Shown here: positions 43-33,694 of the stretch, piece after piece
Position numbering within the stretch: the stretch's first letter is position 1
Layout of the letters: each line of letters begins with the position of its first letter
Assembly (NCBI RefSeq): GCF_030056795.1
Contig: NZ_JASHKQ010000009.1
Coordinates: forward strand, 1 to 64,000
Source of the DNA: Rhodococcus sp. IEGM 1381
Lineage (GTDB): Bacteria; Actinomycetota; Actinomycetes; Mycobacteriales; Mycobacteriaceae
Length of the DNA stretch: 64,000 nucleotides
Direction of reading: 5' to 3'
Program-made: the position numbers and the translations under genes
Notes under the pieces: model-generated
What the model saw: only the letters and a program-made list of their open reading frames with translations
The model's database searches: none
Told to the model about the DNA's origin: nothing

Positions 43-98
43 CGCACACACCATTCACCTCCGAGCTGAAGCTCGTGGGTGTCCGGGGCAACCGTTCC

Positions 99-128
99 AG
101 CTTAGATCAGATGATCGAGCACAGTCAA
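99..128 (-). promoter_or_regulatory. proximal rRNA promoter (PCL1-like)
   Basis: On the minus strand there is a -35 TTGACT (128-123), an 18-nt spacer and a -10 TAAGCT (104-99), followed at 93-84 by GGTTGCCCCG. This order, including the GGTTGCCCCG block at the expected start of transcription, matches the conserved PCL1 promoter of mycobacterial rrn operons. It would drive the rRNA genes beyond the left edge. Confidence 0.8.
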
Positions 129-252
129 ACTGGCTTCTCATCTATGAAGGAGTCCAACCTTGCGGTTCAACTACCTTCATTGTGCCGAGCGAACTCCGCG
201 TTGCTCAGGCCTCGCGGTCTGGGCTGGCGTCCGTGTCGCTCTGACCTGGACA

Positions 253-22436: not shown

Positions 22437-25367
22437 CTACCGGACCGCGACGACCTTTCGCGGCCTGCGCTTCTTTGGGGCGGCTTTCACCGGCTGCGAG
22501 ACAACCGACTCACGAGTGAGCGCTTCCTGCAGGAACTTACCCGTGTAGCTTTCCGGCACGGCCGCTACAGCCTCCGGATCACCCTGCGCCACAACCATTC
22601 CGCCACCGGAGCCACCCTCGGGGCCCATGTCGATCACCCAGTCGGAGACCTTGATGACATCCAGGTTGTGCTCGATAACGATCACCGTGTTGCCCTTGTC
22701 CACCAAACCGTTCACCACGCCGAGCAGCTTCCGGATGTCCTCGAAGTGCAAACCGGTGGTCGGCTCGTCGAGAATGTAGACCGTGCGTCCGGTGGACCGC
22801 TTCTGCAATTCAGCCGCCAACTTCACGCGTTGCGCCTCACCACCGGACAACGTGGTGGCCGGTTGCCCGAGCCGCACGTATCCGAGACCGACCTCGACGA
22901 GCGTCTTGAGGTATCGGTGGATCGAGGTGATGGCCTCGAAGAAGTCCGCGGCTTCCTCGATCGGCATGTCCAGAACCTCGGCGATGGTCTTGCCTTTGTA
23001 ATGCACCTCGAGCGTCTCGCGGTTGTATCGCGCGCCCTCACAGACCTCGCACGGAACGTAGACGTCGGGCAGGAAGTTCATCTCGATCTTGAGAGTGCCG
23101 TCGCCGGAGCATGCCTCGCACCGCCCGCCCTTGACATTGAACGAGAACCGCCCGGGCTGGTAACCGCGCACCTTGGCCTCGGTGGTGGCTGCGAACAACG
23201 TACGAATCTTGTCGAAGACGCCGGTGTAAGTCGCGGCATTGGACCGTGGCGTGCGGCCGATGGGCGACTGGTCGACCCGAACGAGTTTGTCGAGCTGGTC
23301 GAGTCCGTTGATCCGGGTGTGCCGTCCGGGAACCTGACGAGCACCGTTGAGCTTGTTGGCCATCACGGTCGCGAGGATGTCGTTGACGAGTGTGGACTTG
23401 CCCGAACCGGAAACCCCGGTGACCGAGGTAAGCACACCGAGCGGGAAGCTGACGTCGACGCCGCGGAGATTGTGCTCGCGGGCACCGACCACTGTGACCT
23501 GACGCTTCTTGTCGACGACGCGACGGGTGTCGGGCAGCGGAATCTCCATCCGACCGGAAAGGTACGCGCCGGTCAGCGATTCTTCGTTGGTCAACAAGTC
23601 CTCGTACGAGCCGCTGTGCACGACGCGGCCGCCGTGCTCACCGGCCAACGGCCCGATGTCCACGATCCAGTCGGAGGTACGAATGGTGTCCTCGTCGTGC
23701 TCCACGACGATCAGTGTGTTTCCGAGGTCGCGCAGCCGGGTCAGCGTGTCGATCAACCGACGGTTGTCTCGCTGGTGCAGACCGATCGAGGGCTCGTCCA
23801 GAACATAGAGAACGCCGACGAGGCCCGATCCGATCTGGGTGGCGAGCCGGATGCGCTGGGCCTCGCCGCCGGACAGGGAGCCGGCGGTTCGAGCCAGCGA
23901 GAGGTATTCCAGGCCGACGTCGAGCAGGAAGCCGAGGCGCGCCTGTACCTCCTTGAGTACCTGGCCTGCGATCGCCTCCTCGCGACGACCGAGAGTGAGG
24001 CTGTTCAGGAAGTTCGCGGTATCGGCGATCGACAGCTCGCACACCTCGGCGATCGACTTGGGACCGAAATCGCCCGCCGCGATCGTGACCGACAAGATCT
24101 CGGGCCGCAGCCTGGCACCGTTGCAGGTGGGACACGGCACGTCGCGCATGTACCCGTCGTAGCGTTCCTTCATCTGCTCGGACTCGGTCTGCTCGAGACG
24201 ACGGTGGAGGAACGGCATCACACCCTCGAACTCGGCGTAGTACGAGCGCGTTCGGCCGTAGCGGTTCTTGTACTTCACGTGCACCTGGTGGTCGCTGCCT
24301 TCGAGGACCGCTCGCTTGACCTTGGCGGGCAACTTGTTCCACGGTGCATTCAGGTCGAACCCCATCGCGTCGGCGAGCCCGGACAGCAGGCGGCCGAAGT
24401 ACTCCGATGTCTGGCCCATCGACCACGGTGCGATGGCTCCGTCGGCGAGGCTGAGATCGCCGTCGGGAACGACCAGCTCCGGGTCGACCTCCTTGCGCAC
24501 ACCGAGTCCGACGCAGTCGGGGCAGGCACCGTACGGCGAGTTGAACGAGAAGGACCGCGGTTCGAGATCGTCGATGGACAACGGGTGACCATTGGGGCAC
24601 GCGAGCTTCTCGGAGAATCGGCGCTCGCGGTCGGCAGCGTTCTCGTCGCGGTCGACGAAATCCAGAACGACGATGCCGTCCGCCAGCCGGAGGGCGGTTT
24701 CGACCGAGTCCGTCAATCTCTGCTTCGAGCTGGACTTGACGGTCAGGCGGTCGACGACGACCTCGATGTCGTGCTTTTCCTGCTTCTTGAGAACGGGAGG
24801 ACTGGTGAGCTGGTGCACGACGCCGTCCACGCGCACACGGGAGTAGCCCTGCGTGTTGAGCGAGTCGAACAGGTCGACGAATTCACCCTTGCGGGTACGG
24901 ACCACCGGAGCAAGGACCTGAAACTTCAGGCCCTCCTCCATGTCCAGCACCTGATCGACGATCTGCTGCGGAGTCTGCTTCGCGATCTGTTCACCACACA
25001 CCGGGCAGTGCGCCGTACCGGCACGGGCGTACAGCAGCCGGAGGTAGTCGTAGACCTCGGTGATGGTGCCGACGGTCGACCGCGGGTTGCGGTTGGTCGA
25101 CTTCTGATCGATCGAGACCGCAGGCGAGAGCCCCTCGATGAAATCGACGTCCGGCTTGTCCATCTGGCCGAGGAACTGCCGTGCGTAGGCGGACAGCGAC
25201 TCCACGTAGCGACGCTGACCTTCGGCGAAGATCGTGTCGAAGGCGAGAGACGATTTGCCCGAGCCGGACAGACCTGTGAATACGATCAGCGCATCGCGAG
25301 GCAGGTCGATGTCGACTCCTCGCAGATTGTGCTCCCGTGCACCTCGCACTATCAGGCGATCCGCCAC
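22437..25367 (-). CDS. uvrA: UvrABC excision nuclease subunit A
   Basis: Damage-recognition ATPase of nucleotide excision repair, 976 residues. First Walker A GLSGSGKS is at residues 32-39. Zinc-binding cysteine pairs are at CPVCGEQ and CPTCNGARL in the first half and at [18 protein letters not shown] in the second. Two LSGGEAQR signatures and two Walker B motifs show the duplicated ABC architecture. The start is GTG 25367, with AAGGGA just upstream and similarity beginning at once; the frame is open to 25568. I saw no LexA-type TCGAAC-N4-GTTCGA box upstream. Confidence 0.97.
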
Positions 25368-25469
25368 TGTGTTCCCTTCTTTCCGAACGAGCACGTCCGA
25401 TCGAGCTGCTGCGGGGCGCAGCACTGCACGACTTTCGAGTCGCGTGATGACGTGTGGTGCCGATGCACC

Positions 25470-25488
25470 GGTTACACGTCGTGTAACC
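25470..25488. promoter_or_regulatory. perfect 19-bp palindrome between uvrA and a hydrolase gene
   Basis: GGTTACACG-T-CGTGTAACC is a perfect palindrome. It sits in the divergent 176-bp region, about 100 bp from the uvrA start and 55 bp from the hydrolase start. It has the form of an operator for a dimeric regulator (TetR- or GntR-like). The regulator is not identifiable from the sequence. Confidence 0.6.
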
Positions 25489-25543
25489 GACGACCCCACG
25501 TCGAAAACCTGTATTGGTGAGGGACGAACCTCACGCAGTCGCA

Positions 25544-26317
25544 ATGGTAGATCCAGGCACCGACACACTTTTCCACGTGCACGACCCCGACGCCCCTCGT
25601 CGGGCCGCCGACGGTAGCGTCCTCGAAATGGACGAGCACCTCTTGGTCATCGACGACGACTACACCGGCGTCGTCTCTCAGGGTTCGCCGCCGCAGCGGC
25701 GCACGATTCCCGGCGCGACGATCACGAAGATGTCGGTCGGCCCCATGGACAACAACACCTACTTGGTCGTCTGTTCCGCAACGGGTCATTCGGTGCTGAT
25801 CGACGCCGCCAACGAGGCCGAACGCATTTCGCTGCTCATCGACGAGAACGCACCGACGCTCTCGCTCATCGTGACGACGCATCAGCACGCCGACCACTGG
25901 CAGGCGCTGGCAGACATCGCCGGTGGTACGGATTCACCCACGGCCGCCCACGCTCTCGATGCCGAGCCGCTGCCGGTCGCTCCGGACCGCCTGCTGGCCG
26001 ATCGGGACACGGTGACGGTGGGCGAGCTCACGTTCGACGTGGTGCACCTGACCGGACACACCCCCGGTTCCATCGCACTCGCGCTGACCGACACCGACGG
26101 CACCCGCACCCATCTCTTCACCGGAGATTCACTCTTCCCCGGGGGCGTCGGAAAAACTGGAAGCCCCGAGGATTTCACCCAGCTGCTCGACGACGTGACG
26201 GCAAAGCTGTTCGACCGATTCGGCGACGACACCGTGGTCTACCCGGGCCACGGAAAGGACACCACACTCGGTGCCGAGCGCCCTCACCTGGCCGAATGGC
26301 GCGAACGGGGCTGGTGA
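25544..26317 (+). CDS. metallo-beta-lactamase-fold hydrolase
   Basis: About 257 residues. The glyoxalase II-like metal motif THQHADHW (HxHxDH) is clear, followed by [25 protein letters not shown] and VVYPGHG with the later metal ligands. It resembles M. tuberculosis Rv1637c, also next to uvrA, which supports a thioester or small-substrate hydrolase; the substrate is unknown. Start choice is uncertain: ATG 25544, an earlier GTG 25517 or ATG 25628 (which starts at the part most conserved in relatives) are all possible. None has a good ribosome site. Confidence 0.9.
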
Positions 26318-26373
26318 CGATCGGCGCGCTTGAGACCGCCGAACACGGGGTATGAATAGTGTGACAAAAGGAC

Positions 26374-26404
26374 GCACCGCGGTAGGTTTTCCCGACCGCT
26401 GTGC
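26374..26404 (+). promoter_or_regulatory. hairpin upstream of the DoxX-repeat gene
   Basis: GCACCGCGGT and ACCGCTGTGC form a 10-bp stem with one mismatch around an 11-nt loop that includes TTTT. It lies 47 nt before the start codon of the DoxX gene and 57 nt after the hydrolase stop. It could be a leader structure or a weak terminator of the hydrolase gene. Confidence 0.4.
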
Positions 26405-26450
26405 GATGTCCTAACGCCGATGACACGAGAAACTACGCAGGAGGCTGTCA

Positions 26451-27641
26451 ATGCTGGTCCGCCGTATCGCCCGTCCGTTGATGTCAACGATCTTCATCGC
26501 CGGGGGCGTCGACGCACTCCGTAACCCCAGTGGCAAGGCAAAGGTCGCCGCTCCGCTGATCGAGCAGGGCAAGGACGCGCTGCCGAACGAGGTCACCGCG
26601 AATGTGCCCGAGGACCCGGAGACGCTGGTTCGTATCAACGGCGGCATTCAGGTTGCGGGCGGCATTCTGTTGGCGACCGGCAAGGCACCGCGTATCGCAT
26701 CGATCGCATTGGCCGGCAGCCTCGTTCCGACGACGCTGGCCGGTCACGCCTTCTGGAACGAGACCGACCCGGAGGCAAAGGCTGCGCAGCGTATCCACTT
26801 CTTCAAGAACCTGAGTCTGCTCGGCGGACTGCTCATCGCAGCCGTCGACACCGAGGGCAAGCCGTCCGTCGCATGGCGTAGCAAGCGGGCAGCACGCCGC
26901 GCGCAGGAGACCGTCGTCTCGGCACTCCCCGGGCACTCCACCCACGAGACCGGTGAGCGCGTCAAGGAAATCGCAGCCGTCGCCGCGAGCCGCAGCGCCG
27001 ATCTCGCCGAGGCTGCCCAGCCGAAGCTGGCCAAGTTCGCCGACGCCGCCCAGCCCAAGTTGGCCAAGCTCGCCGACATCGCTACCGACAAGGGCTCGGA
27101 GCTGGCCGAGGTCGCTCAGCCGGCACTGAGCCGCTGGGCTCACGTGGCCGCCGACAAGGGTTCCGTGCTCGCCGAGGAAGCGCAGAAGCGCGGATCCAAG
27201 CTGGCCGGACTCGCCGCCGACCGCGGAAGCGACTTGGCCGACGAGGCACAGAAGCGCGGTTCCAAGCTCGCTGACAAGGCAGCGCACCGCGGAACCGACC
27301 TGGCCGAACTCGCACAGAAGCGCGGATCGAAGCTCGTCGACGTTGCCGCCGATCGTCGCGTCGAACTGGCCGACGTGGCGCAGAAGCGGGCATCCAAGCT
27401 CGCCGAACTGGCCGCCGAAAAGGGCTCCGTCCTCGCCGACGAGGCTCAGAAGCGCGGAGTCACCTGGGCCGATCTGGCGTCCGATCGGGTGGAGACACTC
27501 GGCAAGCGCGCTCGCAAGCGCGCCGAGAAGCAAAGCAAGGAGCTCGAAAAGGTCACCGAGCAGGCCCGCGCCAAGCTCGAAAAGCGAGTCGCCAAGGCTC
27601 AGAAGAACCTGGACAAGAAGATTCAGCAGTACGCCAAGTAG
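26451..27641 (+). CDS. DoxX-family membrane protein with sixteen 11-residue amphipathic repeats
   Basis: 396 residues. Residues 1-135 look like DoxX: four hydrophobic segments, early FIAGGVDALRNP and a conserved TLAGHAFWNE stretch. Residues ~140-175 are a basic linker. Residues 176-351 are sixteen consecutive 11-mers, none broken by an insertion, of form [DE]-x-A-x-[KD]-[RK]-G-S-x-L-A, with Lys/Arg-rich and Asp-rich copies often alternating (22-residue superperiod). Residues 352-396 are a Lys-rich helix ending YAK. AGGAGG lies 6 nt before ATG 26451. Eleven-residue amphipathic repeats are typical of apolipoprotein-, perilipin- and synuclein-type lipid-surface helices and of LEA proteins, so a role at membranes or lipid droplets is an inference. 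Confidence 0.9.
   Translation: MLVRRIARPLMSTIFIAGGVDALRNPSGKAKVAAPLIEQGKDALPNEVTANVPEDPETLVRINGGIQVAGGILLATGKAPRIASIALAGSLVPTTLAGHAFWNETDPEAKAAQRIHFFKNLSLLGGLLIAAVDTEGKPSVAWRSKRAARRAQETVVSALPGHSTHETGERVKEIAAVAASRSADLAEAAQPKLAKFADAAQPKLAKLADIATDKGSELAEVAQPALSRWAHVAADKGSVLAEEAQKRGSKLAGLAADRGSDLADEAQKRGSKLADKAAHRGTDLAELAQKRGSKLVDVAADRRVELADVAQKRASKLAELAAEKGSVLADEAQKRGVTWADLASDRVETLGKRARKRAEKQSKELEKVTEQARAKLEKRVAKAQKNLDKKIQQYAK
26976..27503 (+). repeat. sixteen tandem 33-bp coding repeats (11-mer helices)
   Basis: The DNA coding for residues 176-351 of the DoxX-family protein. Each unit is exactly 33 bp with no insertion or deletion, e.g. EEAQKRGSKLA, GLAADRGSDLA, DEAQKRGSKLA, DKAAHRGTDLA, ELAQKRGSKLV. 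Units 6-15 are the most alike, suggesting recent duplication of 66-bp pairs; the first units (EAAQPKLAKFA, DAAQPKLAKLA) form a separate sub-type. Confidence 0.9.
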
Positions 27642-27673
27642 TCCTCGCCGATAGAACGAGCGCACGTTCGTGC

Positions 27674-27720
27674 ACAGCGGCCCTGCCCCGGAACTCGAGG
27701 TTCTGCGGCGGGGCCGTTGT
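27674..27720 (+). terminator. GC-rich hairpin after the DoxX-repeat gene
   Basis: ACAGCGGCCC pairs with GGGCCGTTGT and an inner stem (GAAC/GTTC) closes a 5-nt loop. The hairpin starts 33 nt after the stop codon. There is no real T-run, so it would be an imperfect or factor-assisted terminator. Confidence 0.55.
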
Positions 27721-27746
27721 GCGGCGTAGACTGCTCTGGCTGATTT

Positions 27747-27767
27747 CGAGGCGATATCTTCGCCTCG
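27747..27767 (+). promoter_or_regulatory. leader hairpin before the HelD-like gene
   Basis: CGAGGCGA-TATCT-TCGCCTCG is an 8-bp perfect stem ending 22 nt before the TTG start. It is immediately followed by the GAGGAG ribosome site, so it may affect initiation. I looked for the rifamycin-associated element known upstream of some helR genes and did not find its sequence. Confidence 0.45.
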
Positions 27768-27789
27768 GCCGAACTCCCGAGGAGACCCT

Positions 27790-30111
27790 TTGCCGGACGA
27801 CGGCCACACATCGAGCGGCTCCGACATGCCGATCGAAGAAGACTTCGAGCAAGCGCATCTGACGAGGCTGTACACGCAGCTGGACGCGCTGCGCGAATAC
27901 GCGGCGAACCGATTGCGGGCCGTGCTGTTGGAGACCGGCGGAACACCGCAGGCCCGAAGCGAACGCGAATCGTTCAACCAGATGTACACCGAGGACATCG
28001 CCAAGTACGACGCCGCAGAGAACGGACTGTGCTTCGGACGTATCGACCTCGATCCGCATTCTCTCGACCCCAAGGTCGATGATCGTCCCGAACGCTACAT
28101 AGGCCGCGTCGGAATTCTCGACGACAAGAACGACTACGAGACGCTGCTGTTGGACTGGCGAGCACCGATGGCCCGGCCGTTCTACCTGGCGACACCGGCT
28201 GCACCGGAAAACGTGTTGCGGCGCAGGCACATTCGTACCCGCGGCCGCCGCGTGACTTCGATCGCCGACGAATTCCTCGATCTGAACTCTGCTCGATCGT
28301 CGAGCGATGCTGCCGTAGCAGGCGGCGTCGCAAGCGAAGGTGCGCTGCTCTCGGCACTGGATGCTGCCCGCACCGGCCAGATGAACGACATCGTGGAAAC
28401 GATCCAGAGCGAACAGGACGCGATCATCCGGTCGCAGCATCGCAGTGTGCTGGTCGTTCAAGGCGGACCGGGCACCGGCAAGACGGCCGTCGCGCTGCAC
28501 CGCGCCGCCTATCTGCTCTACACCTACCGCCAGCAGCTGGGTAAGAGCGGCGTACTCATCATCGGACCCAACGCGACGTTCCTCGACTACATCGGACAGG
28601 TGCTGCCCTCGCTCGGCGAGACCGGCGTGCTGTTGTCCACGATCGGTGACCTCTACCCGGGAGTCCGTGCGCAACGAGAGGATTCGGCCCTGGCCACCGA
28701 GGTCAAGGGCAGACTGTCGATGGTCGACGTGCTGAACCGAGCAGTACGCGACCGGCAGGAAGTTCCCGCGCAGCCGAGGCGGCTGAAGTTCGACACCTAC
28801 GACATCACGCTCGACCGCAAGATCGTCACCCGAGCTCGCGGACGCGCTCGCTCGTCGCGGCGACCACACAACCTGGCTCGGCCCCTGTTCGTGTCCTCGG
28901 TGATCGATCAACTGGCCAACCAACTGGCAGCGAAGCTGGGCCAGAATCTGGTCGACGGATCCAGCCTGCTCAGCGCCGACGACATAGCGGACATGCGCGA
29001 CGAGATGCGCGAAGACCAGGACGTCATGGCCGCTGTCGACGAGTTGTGGCCGGACCTGTCTCCCCAACAGGTTCTCCACGACCTGTTTGCGTCGCCCGAG
29101 AAGATCGCCTCGGCCGCACCGGAACTGGACGCGGAAGAGCGCGAATCGCTGACCCGTCGGGGCCGGGGTTTCTCCGCTGCCGACGCTCCCCTGCTGGACG
29201 AGCTGGCCGAGTTGCTCGGCGTGGACGATGCGGCCGAACGCGAGCAGGCACAACGTCAATGGCGCGGCCAGATCGCCGACGCCCAGGGCGCGCTGGACAT
29301 CCTGACCGGTTCGGCACCACAGGACCTCGAAGACGAACTCGACCCGGAGATCCTGATGGCCTACGACTTGATCGACGCCGATCAGCTTGCGCGGCGTCAG
29401 AATTCGGGTCAACGCCTCACCACCGCCGAACGGGCAGCCGGCGACCGGACCTGGACCTACGGGCACGTGATCGTCGACGAAGCTCAGGAACTGTCGACCA
29501 TGGCGTGGCGAATGGTGATGCGACGCATACCGAATCGGTGGATGACGCTGGTGGGCGACACTGCGCAGACCGGCGATCCCGCCGGAACGTCTTCCTGGAG
29601 TTCGGTTCTCGAACCGTATGTGGCACAGCGCTGGAAGCGGACCGAACTCACGGTCAACTACCGGACGCCGTCGGAGATCATGGTGGTGGCGCACGACGTG
29701 CTGGCCGCGATCGATCCAGACCAATCCGAGCCCCGTTCCATCCGCAGCACCGGCGTCACACCGTGGGCGCAACAAGTGCTGGAGGCAGACCTGTTCACCG
29801 CAGTGGAGAAGCGGGTCGCCGAGCACCCACGTCCCGGACTGAGCGCAGTGCTCGTCCCAGCCGGTCGCGTCCCCGACTTCCGACATCTGGCGTCGGACGT
29901 GGTGACCGTGTCATCGGTCAGGGACGCGAAAGGTCTCGAATTCGACTCGGTTCTCATCGTCGAGCCGAGTGCCATCGTGGCCGAGTCGCCCAAGGGGATG
30001 AACGACCTCTACGTGGCGCTGACCCGAGCCACCCAGCGACTCGGCGTGGTGCACGTCGACGCACTACCGAAGGAACTCTCGGCGCTGCAGCCGTTCGAGC
30101 CGGAAGCCTAG
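27790..30111 (+). CDS. HelD/HelR-type RNA polymerase-associated helicase
   Basis: 773 residues, superfamily 1 UvrD/Rep-like. The Walker A GGPGTGKT is near residues 226-233, Walker B-like VIVDEAQELS near 560, a motif III-type LVGDTAQTGDPAGTSSW follows, and YVALTRATQRLGVV is near the C-terminus. The N-terminal ~60 residues form a long coiled coil, the arm that enters the RNA polymerase secondary channel in HelD. HelD releases stalled polymerase; HelR relatives in Streptomyces and M. abscessus also displace rifamycins. Assignment to one of these roles is not possible from sequence. TTG 27790 is used because GAGGAG lies about 6 nt before it; ATG 27826 is the alternative. Confidence 0.9.
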   Translation: MPDDGHTSSGSDMPIEEDFEQAHLTRLYTQLDALREYAANRLRAVLLETGGTPQARSERESFNQMYTEDIAKYDAAENGLCFGRIDLDPHSLDPKVDDRPERYIGRVGILDDKNDYETLLLDWRAPMARPFYLATPAAPENVLRRRHIRTRGRRVTSIADEFLDLNSARSSSDAAVAGGVASEGALLSALDAARTGQMNDIVETIQSEQDAIIRSQHRSVLVVQGGPGTGKTAVALHRAAYLLYTYRQQLGKSGVLIIGPNATFLDYIGQVLPSLGETGVLLSTIGDLYPGVRAQREDSALATEVKGRLSMVDVLNRAVRDRQEVPAQPRRLKFDTYDITLDRKIVTRARGRARSSRRPHNLARPLFVSSVIDQLANQLAAKLGQNLVDGSSLLSADDIADMRDEMREDQDVMAAVDELWPDLSPQQVLHDLFASPEKIASAAPELDAEERESLTRRGRGFSAADAPLLDELAELLGVDDAAEREQAQRQWRGQIADAQGALDILTGSAPQDLEDELDPEILMAYDLIDADQLARRQNSGQRLTTAERAAGDRTWTYGHVIVDEAQELSTMAWRMVMRRIPNRWMTLVGDTAQTGDPAGTSSWSSVLEPYVAQRWKRTELTVNYRTPSEIMVVAHDVLAAIDPDQSEPRSIRSTGVTPWAQQVLEADLFTAVEKRVAEHPRPGLSAVLVPAGRVPDFRHLASDVVTVSSVRDAKGLEFDSVLIVEPSAIVAESPKGMNDLYVALTRATQRLGVVHVDALPKELSALQPFEPEA

Positions 30112-30127
30112 AGACCTGCACACACCA

Positions 30128-30162
30128 ACGGCCCGCTCCGTCGATTCGATGGAGCGGGCCGT
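30128..30162. terminator. bidirectional terminator between HelD-like gene and usp
   Basis: ACGGCCCGCTCC and GGAGCGGGCCGT form a perfect 12-bp stem around an 11-nt loop, 17 nt after the helicase stop and 19 nt before the usp stop on the other strand. It serves two converging genes. Confidence 0.8.
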
Positions 30163-30181
30163 AAGGCGTGTTCAGGATGAA

Positions 30182-30634
30182 TCAGCGGACGGTGTGCACG
30201 ATCAGGACATCGCAGGTGGACTTGCGAGCGGCGTCGGACGGAACCGAACCCAACAGGCGGCCGGTCAACGAGTTCAGTCCGCGGTTGCCGACGACGAGCA
30301 GATCGCCCTTCACCTCGTCCACGAGTGCCAGCAGCGACTCGACGGGGGCACCGACGATCGCCTTCTCCTCGATGTTCTTCGCACCGGCCTTGGTGGCGTG
30401 CTCGCGCGCAGTGCGCAGAATTTCACGCGTCGGTGCCGATCCGGTGATCTGGTAGGCGTCCTCACGCAATGCGTCGGCGGCAGCGGACGTGTCCTTCGGA
30501 TCGGCCGGGTAGTACGCGCAGGCGATCACCAGGGTGGCATCGGCGTCTCCCGCCAGAGCCGCGGCCTTCTCCACTGCCCGCAGTGACGATTCGGAGCCAT
30601 CGGTCCCGACGACGACGGTGCGGTAGGCGCTCAT
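30182..30634 (-). CDS. universal stress protein (single UspA domain)
   Basis: 150 residues, like M. tuberculosis Rv1636, which binds cAMP and ATP. The start TVVVGTDGSESSLRAVEKAA and the nucleotide-binding signature G-N-R-G-(x)9-G-S near residues 118-130 are present. ATG 30634 follows GGAGGA by a few bases. Its upstream region carries the inverted repeat GTCACA-N6-TGTGAC (30653-30670), which may be an operator. Confidence 0.93.
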   Translation of the reverse strand: MSAYRTVVVGTDGSESSLRAVEKAAALAGDADATLVIACAYYPADPKDTSAAADALREDAYQITGSAPTREILRTAREHATKAGAKNIEEKAIVGAPVESLLALVDEVKGDLLVVGNRGLNSLTGRLLGSVPSDAARKSTCDVLIVHTVR

Positions 30635-30670: not shown

Positions 30671-30804
30671 ACTTCTGGTCGAACTCGATTGGTGCAAGTC
30701 ACAGGACCGAAAGACGGTGGTCCGGGGACTGATTCGCTGACATTAGCCGCAACCGGCCGATCGGCACGTGAACTTGGGGAACAACACGATCCGCGCCACT
30801 CACA

Positions 30805-30810
30805 TACATT
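30805..30810 (+). promoter_or_regulatory. -10 element of leaderless hydrolase-ABC gene
   Basis: TACATT, exactly 7 nt before ATG 30818. No ribosome site lies between. Transcription would start at or next to the A of the ATG. A clear -35 is not seen. Confidence 0.5.
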
Positions 30811-30817
30811 GGTTTGC

Positions 30818-33694
30818 ATGCCGATTCCCCGCCCGCCACTGCCGAGACGGGCCATGACCGTCGGAGCCGCAGTGATTGCAGTTCTGGCGGTAGCCGCTCT
30901 CGCATTCGTAGTCCTCCCCCAGGATTCGAGCGCCGACACATCCACTCGTGATGCGCGCATCACGCTACCGGAGAGCCCCGAGTCGACGGGCACCGTCGAC
31001 ATCGACGCGCGGCTCTACGCCCCGGCTGTCACACCAGCGCCGACGGTGCTCCTCGCCCACGGCTTCGGCGGCAGCAAGGACTCGGTCGACGGTGAGGCAC
31101 GTGACCTCGCGGCTCGCGGGTACACCGTGCTCGCCTACAGCGCACGCGGGTTCGGCGACAGCACGGGTTCGATCTCGATCAACGACCCCGATCGCGAAGT
31201 CGCTGACGCTCGCGGACTCATCGACTGGCTGGCCGAACAACCGGAGGTGGAACTCGACGCTCCCGGCGACCCGCACGTAGGAGTTGCCGGTGGATCGTAC
31301 GGCGGCGCGCTGGCGCTGAGTGCGGGCGGCACCGATCCCCGCATCGATTCCATCGCCGCCGCGATCACCTGGAACGACCTGGGTCAGGCCCTGTTCCCCA
31401 ACTACGGCGTCACCTCGACCGAGGGCCGAGAAGCCCTCGGCGACAAGGTCACTCCCGCGGCTGCGGAGTACGGCGGACCCGGCGTGCTCAAGCGTGGCTG
31501 GGCCGGTGTGTTCTTCGGAGCGGGCGCAGCGAGCACACCGCCCGGCGACGGCGGTGACGGCGGTGATGCAAGCACGGAAACATCGGGGACTGGTGACGGC
31601 GCGTCTGCATGCGGCAGGTTCTCACCCGAGTTCTGCGACGCCTATGCCCAATCCGCGGTGACAGGGATCCCCAGCCAACAGCTCCTCGATCTGCTGACCG
31701 CACACTCTCCCGTCGCGGTGGCGTCGAACATCACCGCACCGACCCTGCTGGTGCAGGGCACCCAGGACACACTGTTCGGCCTGGATCAGGCCGACGCGAC
31801 GGCGCGTCAGATCGCGGCGGCCGGTGGGAACGTCACGGTGCGATGGTTCGACGGCGGCCACGACGCAGGCGGAACGGACGGCACGAGCGATCGGGCCATC
31901 GCCGACTTCTTCGACAGGACGTTGCGTGACCGCGAGGCTGCCACCGGTAGCCAGCCGTTCGTCTACTCCACTCAGCGGGCAGCCGACGAGCGCGGCGGCG
32001 ACCGCAACCGCCGGATGACAGCTCCCGACTACCCGGGCCTGGCGGCCGATTCCGACGCCACGCAGACCGAATCCGTTACGTTCACTCCCAGGGCTGAGAA
32101 CCAGTCGATCATTCGTCCGCCCGGAGCGTCGCCGTCGGCGATCTCGTCGGTACCCGGTTTGGGCTCCGTGCTCTCGACTCTCGGATCGACCGGGGCCGGA
32201 GCAGCCCTGACCGCGGACCTGCCGGGCCAGTCGGCAACGTTCACCAGCGATCCCGTCGATTCGTCCGTAACGATCACCGGTGCACCTCGAGTGAACCTAC
32301 GAGTGGCGTCACTGGCCTCACCAGGTCAAGCCGTTCTGTTCGCAAAGCTCTACGACGTCGCACCGAACGGCACGAGAACGCTTCCCGGCGGCGCGGTCTC
32401 GGCGATCCGTCTCCCCGATACCGAGGGCATCGATCCCGTCGATGTCACCGTTGCGCTGCCTGGCATCAGCTACGCCGTCCAGCAGGGTCATCGCCTCGAA
32501 CTGAGCATCTCCACCACGGATCAGGCCTACGCCGTTCCGCTCGAACCGGCCCAGTTCAGCGTGGCCATGACCGACAACACCATTGCGTTGCCCACCGTCC
32601 CCGCAGAGGAGAGCGCCAACAGCACCGTTCCGGTGGCACCGCTGATCGGCATCGGGGTCGTCCTTCTCGCGGTTGCTGGTGCGATCGTGGCCGGAGCCGT
32701 GCGGACCAGACGCCGCGCGGTCGCCGAAGTGGACGAGAGTCTGATCGACACTCCCCTGGTGATCACCGATCTGGCCAAGACGTACTCCAACAGCTTCCGC
32801 GCGGTCGACGGCGTCAGCTTCGAGGTGAAGCAGGGCCAGGTCCTGGGTCTCCTCGGGCCCAACGGTGCAGGAAAGACCACCACCCTGCGGATGCTGATGG
32901 GCCTGATCACCCCCACCGGCGGTGATATCCGCGTCTTCGGCCACAAGGTGACGCCGGGCGCGCCGGTGCTGTCCAGACTCGGCTCGTTCGTCGAGGGATC
33001 AGGATTTCTTCCCCACCTGACCGGAACTCAGAACCTACGGTTGTACTGGGAGGCGACCGGGCGGCCGATCGAGGACGCCCACCTGGAAGAGGCGCTGGAG
33101 ATCGCCGATCTCGGCACCGCCATCGAACGCAAGGTCAAGTCGTACAGCCAGGGCATGAGGCAGCGGCTGGCCATCGCCCAAGCAATGCTGGGGCTGCCGG
33201 ACCTGATGGTTCTGGACGAACCGACCAACGGACTCGACCCACCGCAGATCAGGACAATGCGCGACGTGCTGATCAACTACGCGAAGACCGGGCGGACGGT
33301 GCTGGTGTCGAGTCACTTACTCGCCGAGGTCGAACAGACCTGTACCCATGTGGTCGTGATGAACCGCGGTTCGGTGATCAGCTCGGGCACCGTCCGCGAA
33401 CTGACCGCAGCGGGCGGGCAAACGGAGATCCGGGTCGACGACGCCACCCGCGCGCGGTCGGTGCTGGACGCCTCAGGTCACGACGGTGCAGTGATCGTCG
33501 ACGACGGCACGGTGACCGTCGACCTGACCGACGCGGATTCCGCCGTCGTGATCCGGGAGCTCGTCACCGCGGGGGTCTCGGTGCGCGGATTCTCGCAATC
33601 GACTCGCCTCGAAGACGTGTTCCTCGACCTCGTTCATCGAGATACACCGGGCTCTGTCATTCACGAGCCTGACACCAGCAAGGATCGCTCATGA
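30818..33694 (+). CDS. exported-type CocE/X-Pro dipeptidyl-peptidase-like hydrolase fused to an ABC ATPase
   Basis: 958 residues, an unusual fusion. Residues ~14-33 are a signal-anchor helix. Residues ~55-370 are an alpha/beta hydrolase with nucleophile S160 (GGSYGG), likely acid D317 and H348. A Gly/Ser-rich insert (~240-265) is followed by two cysteines (265, 273). Residues ~400-590 are a beta-rich X-Pro-type C-terminal domain. Residues ~606-628 are a second membrane helix. Residues ~645-958 are an ABC ATPase with GPNGAGKT (680-687), SYSQGMRQRL and LMVLDEPTNGLD. The layout places the hydrolase outside and the ATPase inside. The downstream permease overlaps by 4 bp (ATGA). It may export or remodel a substrate the hydrolase acts on; the substrate is unknown. 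Confidence 0.9.
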   Translation: MPIPRPPLPRRAMTVGAAVIAVLAVAALAFVVLPQDSSADTSTRDARITLPESPESTGTVDIDARLYAPAVTPAPTVLLAHGFGGSKDSVDGEARDLAARGYTVLAYSARGFGDSTGSISINDPDREVADARGLIDWLAEQPEVELDAPGDPHVGVAGGSYGGALALSAGGTDPRIDSIAAAITWNDLGQALFPNYGVTSTEGREALGDKVTPAAAEYGGPGVLKRGWAGVFFGAGAASTPPGDGGDGGDASTETSGTGDGASACGRFSPEFCDAYAQSAVTGIPSQQLLDLLTAHSPVAVASNITAPTLLVQGTQDTLFGLDQADATARQIAAAGGNVTVRWFDGGHDAGGTDGTSDRAIADFFDRTLRDREAATGSQPFVYSTQRAADERGGDRNRRMTAPDYPGLAADSDATQTESVTFTPRAENQSIIRPPGASPSAISSVPGLGSVLSTLGSTGAGAALTADLPGQSATFTSDPVDSSVTITGAPRVNLRVASLASPGQAVLFAKLYDVAPNGTRTLPGGAVSAIRLPDTEGIDPVDVTVALPGISYAVQQGHRLELSISTTDQAYAVPLEPAQFSVAMTDNTIALPTVPAEESANSTVPVAPLIGIGVVLLAVAGAIVAGAVRTRRRAVAEVDESLIDTPLVITDLAKTYSNSFRAVDGVSFEVKQGQVLGLLGPNGAGKTTTLRMLMGLITPTGGDIRVFGHKVTPGAPVLSRLGSFVEGSGFLPHLTGTQNLRLYWEATGRPIEDAHLEEALEIADLGTAIERKVKSYSQGMRQRLAIAQAMLGLPDLMVLDEPTNGLDPPQIRTMRDVLINYAKTGRTVLVSSHLLAEVEQTCTHVVVMNRGSVISSGTVRELTAAGGQTEIRVDDATRARSVLDASGHDGAVIVDDGTVTVDLTDADSAVVIRELVTAGVSVRGFSQSTRLEDVFLDLVHRDTPGSVIHEPDTSKDRS

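Follow-up and report, generated by a model that had tools for sequence, protein, structure and literature searches.

Long helices of 11-residue repeats that lie on lipid surfaces are best known from eukaryotic lipoprotein, lipid-droplet and desiccation proteins. The exchangeable apolipoproteins are secreted and anchor-free, and the 22-residue repeats of apoA-I are punctuated by proline. Class A amphipathic helices in the sense of Segrest carry basic residues at the border between the polar and the nonpolar face, with acidic residues in the middle of the polar one. Here, we describe a gene of Rhodococcus sp. IEGM 1381 whose product joins a DoxX membrane domain to a long tail of 11-residue repeats. 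It lies in the first 64,000 nucleotides of contig NZ_JASHKQ010000009.1, a stretch called the window throughout. Tentatively, we interpret the protein as a lipid-surface helix that is linked to stress and tethered to the membrane at its cytoplasmic leaflet, a reading that we regard as possible, if somewhat short of probable.

Perilipin 4 (Plin4) resembles the tail in its long, indel-free array of weakly amphipathic 11-mers (PMC5889406). The published description of Plin4 that we drew on names no transmembrane anchor; its 29 repeats of 33 residues are rich in Val, Thr and Ala and 15% charged, compared with 34% in the window tail. The pattern on the polar face of Plin4 was proposed to let helices assemble on the surface (PMC8064757). 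Group 3 late embryogenesis abundant (LEA) proteins consist of 11-mer repeats of the type TAQAAKEKAGE (PMC6559209). A tardigrade member is described as binding negatively charged membranes via a change from disorder to helix and as having homologues with similarity to apolipoproteins (PMC10808001). The mycobacterial DoxX proteins Rv3005c and Rv2617c are reported in a redox complex with SodA and SseA; they share the DoxX domain and a redox or stress setting with the window protein, and the passages on them in that paper mention no 11-mer tail (PMC10943396).

The 11-residue periodicity of the tail is far beyond chance. A previous inspection of the DNA without database searches (the sequence-only reading) had marked 16 × 11 residues free of insertions and deletions at 26976-27503. 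This block comprises residues 176-351, i.e. 176 residues with zero indels, and its self-identity at lags of 11 and 22 reached 0.43 and 0.53, respectively, whereas 2000 shuffles never exceeded 0.23 at any lag from 2 to 44. The claim was thus borne out and the length of the block was correct, but its register was not: the cleanest one sits seven residues downstream, with 16 units from residue 183 (nt 26997) to residue 358 (nt 27524), and is preceded by a weaker 17th unit (residues 172-182). The 176-residue block has a net charge of only +1. Its alternation of Lys-type and Asp-type copies, seen by the same reading, was also found in 21 close relatives, which were defined by identical first 19 residues and, being related sequences, do not supply independent events. 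In these, the charge sign flipped between successive unit junctions in 252 of 269 steps, compared with 53 of 465 in other proteins, and like signs at position 9 and at position 2 of the following unit were seen in 178 of 197 cases. Such alternating patches of like charge recall the assembly proposed for the polar face of Plin4 (PMC8064757).

We examined the chemistry of the helix over 1373 units found by a profile in the tails of the family (shuffled tails: median 0, maximum 2 units per tail). The nonpolar face is formed by Leu/Trp/Phe at position 3, Ala at 7, Gly/Ala at 11 and Ala at 4. Position 3 was Leu, Trp or Phe in 79% of the units and position 10 Lys or Arg in 86%. Pro occupied position 1 in 13% and recurred there every second unit (63 of 93 successive pairs), a likeness to the 22-mers of apolipoproteins. 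Measured from the nonpolar centre, the mostly acidic positions (2, 5 and 9) lie at 128-166 degrees. Of the two basic positions, 8 is found at +101 degrees, and 10, at -63 degrees, partly overlaps the nonpolar face. Basic residues at the border and acidic ones in the middle of the polar face, as in class A helices, were found over these units. The consensus helix is class-A-like and close to the class A of apolipoproteins, and its lipid binding is a prediction.

With the Fauchere-Pliska scale, the median moment of 105 runs of at least 55 residues was 0.288 and that of the window 0.279, to be set beside 0.257 for Plin4, 0.30 for alpha-synuclein, 0.35 for Plin3 and 0.39 for apoA-I (PMC5889406, Table 1); the comparison is approximate because the published values are from Heliquest and are means over consecutive helices. 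Median fractions of hydrophobic, aromatic and charged residues were 0.42, 0.023 and 0.36, respectively. The same published table gives a charged fraction of 0.35 for apoA-I (PMC5889406), which the window tail resembles in this respect as well as in its 11/22-residue units and class A charge pattern. Between 85 and 115 degrees, the moment peaked at 97.5-99.0 in all 86 runs of at least 88 residues.

Family membership was a different matter. PF01442 scored 11.3 bits in the window protein against a cut-off of 90, which places it outside the apolipoprotein A1/A4/E family, and the perilipin family was not among the Pfam matches listed for the window protein or for the 17 members of our alignment A1. 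In place of the C-terminal four-helix bundle of perilipins, the window protein has an N-terminal DoxX domain and, according to AlphaFold, a helical tail end. By these tests it stands outside both families, and it is plausible by analogy that it works like the helices of perilipins, apolipoproteins and LEA proteins. Searching the window's genome with PF01442 gave five matches, none above the cut-off; the best of them is an HBHA-like protein with a Lys/Ala/Pro-rich tail (L183, C30:11835-12107).

The DoxX domain recognised by the sequence-only reading is confirmed by PF07681 (E 7e-8, 33.4 bits, gathering cut-off 23.6), a profile matched at E ≤ 1 by 17 of 17 members of A1 (best 4.8e-11). An NCBIfam search with the window protein found no match. 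Among solved structures there was no relative of the whole protein at E ≤ 1, and the DoxX profile gave two matches only (E 0.87 and 1, a chitinase-like protein). Three further DoxX matches occur in the window's genome, none with the repeats, and a search of this genome for another relative of the tail returned chance-level matches only (E 0.04 and 0.07).

In the 16 sequences of alignment A2, whose segments we delimited by hand, the mean number of basic residues per residue was 0.38 at the N terminus, 0.33 in loop 2 and 0.24 after the last helix, and 0.11 and 0.12 in loops 1 and 3. Acidic residues were more frequent and basic ones sparse in loops 1 and 3. Since basic residues are concentrated at the N terminus, in loop 2 and after the last helix, both ends should be cytoplasmic, and with them the tail. 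As the sequence-only reading had suggested, the protein was modelled with AlphaFold (17 sequences). The DoxX part was predicted as a helical bundle (helices 2-24, 26-43, 56-76, 80-97 and 107-132; mean predicted local distance difference test score, pLDDT, 83.2) and the tail, with modest confidence, as two long helices (167-258 and 260-395). The model favours an extended helix over a globular fold, nothing more.

Single repeat units are under strong purifying selection, as judged from nine equally long orthologues. The ratio of non-synonymous to synonymous change (omega) was 0.077 for the repeats, 0.070 for the DoxX domain and 0.045 for the 38 C-terminal residues. Position 7 was Ala in 144 of 144 cells at a synonymous divergence of 0.82; position 10 (Lys/Arg) had an omega of 0.018, and position 1 was relaxed (0.47). 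Orthologous units were 93% identical, compared with 43% between units of one protein, and therefore single units are kept in place and not homogenised. Among pairs of unequal length, the difference was a multiple of 11 in 33 of 35 with at least 95% DoxX identity and in 50 of 62 with 90-95%. Pairs overlap and are not independent, and total lengths include the linker and the end, which also vary; for this reason, unit-wise length change is shown between close relatives only.

We asked how widely the architecture occurs. The sequence-only reading knew of no described DoxX protein of this kind, and in our literature searches (DoxX with lipid droplet, Rhodococcus repeat, amphipathic or Mycobacterium/Corynebacterium, and MSMEG_3255) no title or abstract among the matches listed dealt with it. 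The architecture is not an oddity of one protein but a trait of a whole bacterial family, and uniqueness of the window protein was rejected. Homologues of the DoxX part were found in 136 of 151 genomes sampled from the window's family (f1 in the search tool) and in 28 of its 31 genera, as well as in 76 of 101 genomes sampled from the order. Named relatives, which represent the best 80 of 530 and lean to close relatives, include Rhodococcus, Gordonia, Williamsia, Prescottella, Skermania, Tomitella and Mycolicibacterium. Among distinct in-family proteins, whose tails measure 82-286 residues, 114 of 119 had their best lag at 11, 22 or 33; a copy at a contig end (L091), a Kitasatospora record (L108), a Flexivirga copy (L115) and duplicate proteins were dropped before these counts. 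Units per tail ranged from 0 to 21 across the tails examined. Thirty out-of-family loci were picked from the order-wide match list, among them the weakly matching L175, perhaps a different DoxX. Tails were 0-52 residues long in 28 of these loci and measured 196 and 283 residues in the other two, which belong to one family. In the tree, 43 of 50 in-family rows together with Flexivirga form one branch (support 90/98, drawn open), and the remaining seven are placed elsewhere, close to out-of-family rows with short tails. This tree may be compatible with one origin of the tail, as it may be with several.

Some individual loci deserve mention. The repeat-tailed copy of Flexivirga meconopsidis (L115) falls within the family in the tree and probably stems from horizontal transfer. 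A 403-residue copy on a Kitasatospora arboriphila contig (L108) has the length of that of Williamsia muralis (L109) and a nearly equal lag profile; the assembly is probably contaminated. The two long-tailed out-of-family orthologues (L151 and L159, family f8 of the order), with lags of 11 and 22, are possibly independent, as is a 52-residue tail with lag 11 (0.54) and a different composition (L123, f11). Three loci of genus g3 (L129-L131), which is free of wax ester synthase/diacylglycerol acyltransferase (WS/DGAT) genes, have tails of comparable length in which an 11-residue register is faint or absent and acidic motifs of the DNKDDW type occur.

The element GCTT-N16-GGGTA upstream of the gene recurs in each of the 19 closest relatives (L036-L054), whose DoxX parts are 81-99% identical; its boxes are constant, and its spacer occurs in 16 versions. 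In 16 upstream regions (the window and 15 relatives), its two boxes were the main invariant blocks besides the region of the ribosome-binding site and the start codon. By chance, the element occurred in 4 of 5504 random 200-nt stretches of those 19 loci and in 67 of 8000 over the 80 named loci. GCTT is a variant of the GTTT consensus, and by sequence match the window gene has a predicted SigF-type promoter; one SigBFG gene above the cut-off was found in the window's genome. A looser, control-free pattern, GATT-N16-GGGTA, was seen at L055, L056 and L059 and at four loci of the R. jostii/opacus type. The strict pattern was found in 0.9% of shuffled upstream regions. All eight Mycobacterium-type loci (L101, L106, L122, L126 and L169-L172) have GTTT-N15/16-GGGAA or GGGTA ending 10-11 nt before the ATG, as do the elements of L128 and L140 from other genera. 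This position would suit a leaderless transcript in the Mycobacterium-type loci.

MSMEG_3255 of M. smegmatis is a probable orthologue, an assignment resting on gene order and promoter, not on protein sequence. It belongs to a DoxX subfamily and to the published SigF regulon, and it has an RDD neighbour; an RDD gene was also next on the same strand in the two named mycobacterial loci tested. The operon MSMEG_3255-3254, in which MSMEG_3254 encodes the RDD protein, is listed among confirmed operons as one chosen for reverse transcription PCR (PMC5741613). In a ΔsigF strain, MSMEG_3255 is reported to be down by 3.16/5.18 log2, with GTTT-N15-GGGAA at 36 (PMC4694148). For log-phase cells taken through cycles of spray drying, the gene is given a ratio of +1.3 in a table that also names trehalose and osmolyte-transport genes; the caption leaves the sign ambiguous, and we take it to mean higher in cycled cells (PMC5445863, Appendix Table 5). 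Another study, on cross-linked cells, found MSMEG_3255 exclusively with tagged FhaA, in at least 4 of 5 replicates (PMC11898655). In M. abscessus, doxX genes are listed as needed in one infection screen; they are not assigned to this family (PMC12519085). Taken together, the regulatory evidence points to general stress (SigF).

On this basis, we propose a model of how the protein may work. The DoxX domain would be its anchor in the plasma membrane, N and C terminus both facing the cytoplasm. One long, class-A-like helix of 3-11 geometry, weakly hydrophobic and highly charged, would be built from the 11-residue units and rest on the cytoplasmic leaflet or fold against it. Each unit would bind lipid weakly and the whole array strongly, as is the case for Plin4 and alpha-synuclein, and in close relatives of the window protein adjacent tails may align via their alternating charge patches. 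Such a tail would coat and stabilise the membrane in stationary phase, drying and other SigF-type stress; contact with lipid droplets would be possible and secondary. We infer both the lipid binding and the protective role of the tail.

Several observations weigh against this model. AlphaFold confidence over the repeats was mostly 50-70 (tail end 86-95) with a predicted template modelling score of 0.38, and long single helices are a default of AlphaFold. Any 11-periodic sequence shows a moment at every harmonic, and the 3/11 harmonic exceeded 4/11 in only 37 of 86 tails. The Fauchere-Pliska peak of the window (60-140 degrees) was at 131 and not at 98, the value given by the other scale. Mean hydrophobicity was very low (median 0.07), and the centre of the nonpolar face was nearly always Ala (position 7, 89% of the units). 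Together with a Lys or Arg 63 degrees away, this centre suits a packed or exposed helix better than deep insertion; an Ala-centred face fits a weakly binding helix of the Plin4 type or a packed hendecad equally well. Within the family, 5 of 119 tails are long yet not 11-periodic (L129, L131, L138, L146 and L168), and the multiple-of-11 rule was gone at 80-90% DoxX identity (16 of 266 pairs, by subtraction from 99 of 363 overall). The strict SigF pattern was missing in the more distant L055, L056, L058 and L059 and present in 35 of 106 distinct upstream regions, being absent from most Rhodococcus, Gordonia and Williamsia loci. The ambiguous sign of the spray-drying ratio belongs here as well. 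Rv2458 is presumably a wrong assignment for MSMEG_3255. The FhaA study, which names it as the M. tuberculosis orthologue, gives MSMEG_3255 two transmembrane helices in its listing, a mismatch with four helices (PMC11898655).

Since Ala almost invariably occupies the middle of the nonpolar face, a hendecad coiled coil is a serious rival, though an unlikely one in our estimate. Tails of several molecules would pack via Leu3, Ala7, Gly11 and Ala4, which can be taken as d, h, a and e, into a cytoplasmic, membrane-anchored rod or sheet with an 11-residue stagger that matches the charge patches. The sequence-only reading had opposed such packing to an amphipathic 11/3 helix; 11/3 character was seen, but Ala7 and the small residues at 11 and 4 fit a hendecad face too. 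Zero replacements at position 7 among the nine orthologues, length differences of whole hendecads and the alternating charge patches would all suit a coiled coil, and the exclusive detection of MSMEG_3255 with FhaA, as reported in the data cited above, would suit a scaffold (PMC11898655). However, the alternation is confined to close relatives of the window protein, Lys/Arg at position 10 would lie beside the core, and Pro recurs at position 1; the sole coiled-coil family among the Pfam matches listed is DUF2205 (E 0.18), and the lack of a solved relative at E ≤ 1 also speaks against it. Alternatively, though we consider this improbable, the tail may be a membrane-anchored LEA-like protectant, disordered in growth and helical on drying or osmotic stress, that shields membrane and proteins. 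To our knowledge, there is no LEA protein with a DoxX anchor, which counts against this view, and Leu/Trp/Phe3 makes the tail more hydrophobic than the TAQAAKEKAGE motif, from which its consensus differs. LEA_4 was not among the 25 of 35 Pfam families listed for the 17 members. The tail does share with group 3 LEA proteins the 11-mers, a weak hydrophobic face and the stress context; it is low in hydrophobicity and high in charge, the disorder-to-helix change described for the tardigrade protein offers a precedent (PMC6559209, PMC10808001), and the available accounts of the probable orthologue place it under SigF (PMC4694148) and in the spray-drying table (PMC5445863).

The lipid-surface idea itself is plausible, and droplet specificity is its weakest part. 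From the amphipathic 11/3 helix on lipid droplets envisaged by the sequence-only reading, the extended helix, the moment peak at 97.5-99.0 and the charge pattern stand, but the droplets in particular do not: we think it quite improbable that the tail extends from the membrane to triacylglycerol droplets and governs how they bud or how large they become. Its chemistry is near that of perilipins, and genomes with more WS/DGAT genes tended to have more units per tail (Spearman 0.39, p 0.02, n 36 genomes, kinship uncorrected). In the same genomes, presence or absence of WS/DGAT gave p 0.12; the four WS/DGAT-free genomes, three of them from one genus, had 0, 3, 5 and 5 units, and the window's genome combines 17 units, the second-highest number of the 36, with only 2 WS/DGAT genes. 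Weak matches to PF01442 (7 of 17 members, best 6.8e-4) and ApoLp-III (2 of 17, best 3.6e-5) would fit a droplet protein, and the R. opacus droplet protein MLDS is described as carrying PF01442 (PMC3902926). A four-pass DoxX domain, however, would need a bilayer and therefore should not sit in a monolayer, and the main text of the lipid-droplet papers examined leaves DoxX unmentioned. Very improbable, in our view, is a slippery Ala-rich spacer or a nucleic-acid-binding tail with no lipid function. The Lys/Arg-rich C terminus (net +6) would suit such a reading, and units of 33 bp should favour gain and loss by slippage. The low omega of the repeats, the column-specific constraint, the greater identity of orthologous units than of units within one protein and the near-neutral repeat block argue against it.

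The coordinates of the features are given in Table 1.

Table 1. The DoxX-tail gene and its parts, in window coordinates
Feature	Position	Strand	Basis
Gene for DoxX-domain protein with long 11-residue-repeat tail	26451..27641	+	Open reading frame, 396 aa, ATG start, stop included
Ribosome-binding site GGAGG	26440..26444	+	Read from sequence; invariant across 16 aligned upstream regions
SigF-type promoter-like element GCTT-N16-GGGTA	26328..26352	+	About 98 nt upstream of start codon; kept in 19/19 closest relatives
DoxX membrane domain, residues 1-133, predicted N-in/C-in	26451..26849	+	Pfam PF07681, AlphaFold helices, basic-residue distribution
Conserved DTEGKPSxxWR motif and variable linker, residues 134-171	26850..26963	+	Alignment A1
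Degenerate extra 11-residue unit, residues 172-182	26964..26996	+	Profile scan, 17 consecutive units
16 uninterrupted 11-residue units, residues 183-358	26997..27524	+	Consensus S-K/D-L-A-D-x-A-A/Q-D/K-R-G; omega 0.077
Basic C-terminal helix, residues 359-396, net charge +6	27525..27638	+	Charge count; AlphaFold pLDDT blocks 90-95

The gene is embedded in the order uvrA (minus strand), metallo-beta-lactamase-fold protein, DoxX-tail gene, UvrD-like helicase and universal stress protein (minus strand), at 22437-30634 of the window. The full order was found in 50 of 80 named loci and 11 of 20 anonymous in-family loci and extends into small-genome relatives; the anonymous Mycobacterium-type loci L169-L172 are without it. 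Beyond old linkage, this conserved order says little about function. Further downstream (30689-33694), a single open reading frame combines an S15 peptidase/alpha-beta hydrolase, a PepX C-terminal domain and an ABC-transporter ATPase.

It is conceivable, although we consider it doubtful, that mycolate-containing actinobacteria have their own DoxX-anchored coat of the inner leaflet, which would be made under SigF-type stress in at least some genera, be tuned in its reach by the number of 11-residue units and, among close relatives of the window protein, lock tail to tail via the 22-residue alternation of charge. If the tail is indeed a lipid-surface helix, the gene would offer a genetic handle on the protection and organisation of the plasma membrane in dormancy and drying in a family that includes Rhodococcus, Gordonia and Mycobacterium. 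The natural series of 0 to 21 units per tail would then be a way to ask how repeat number sets lipid binding.

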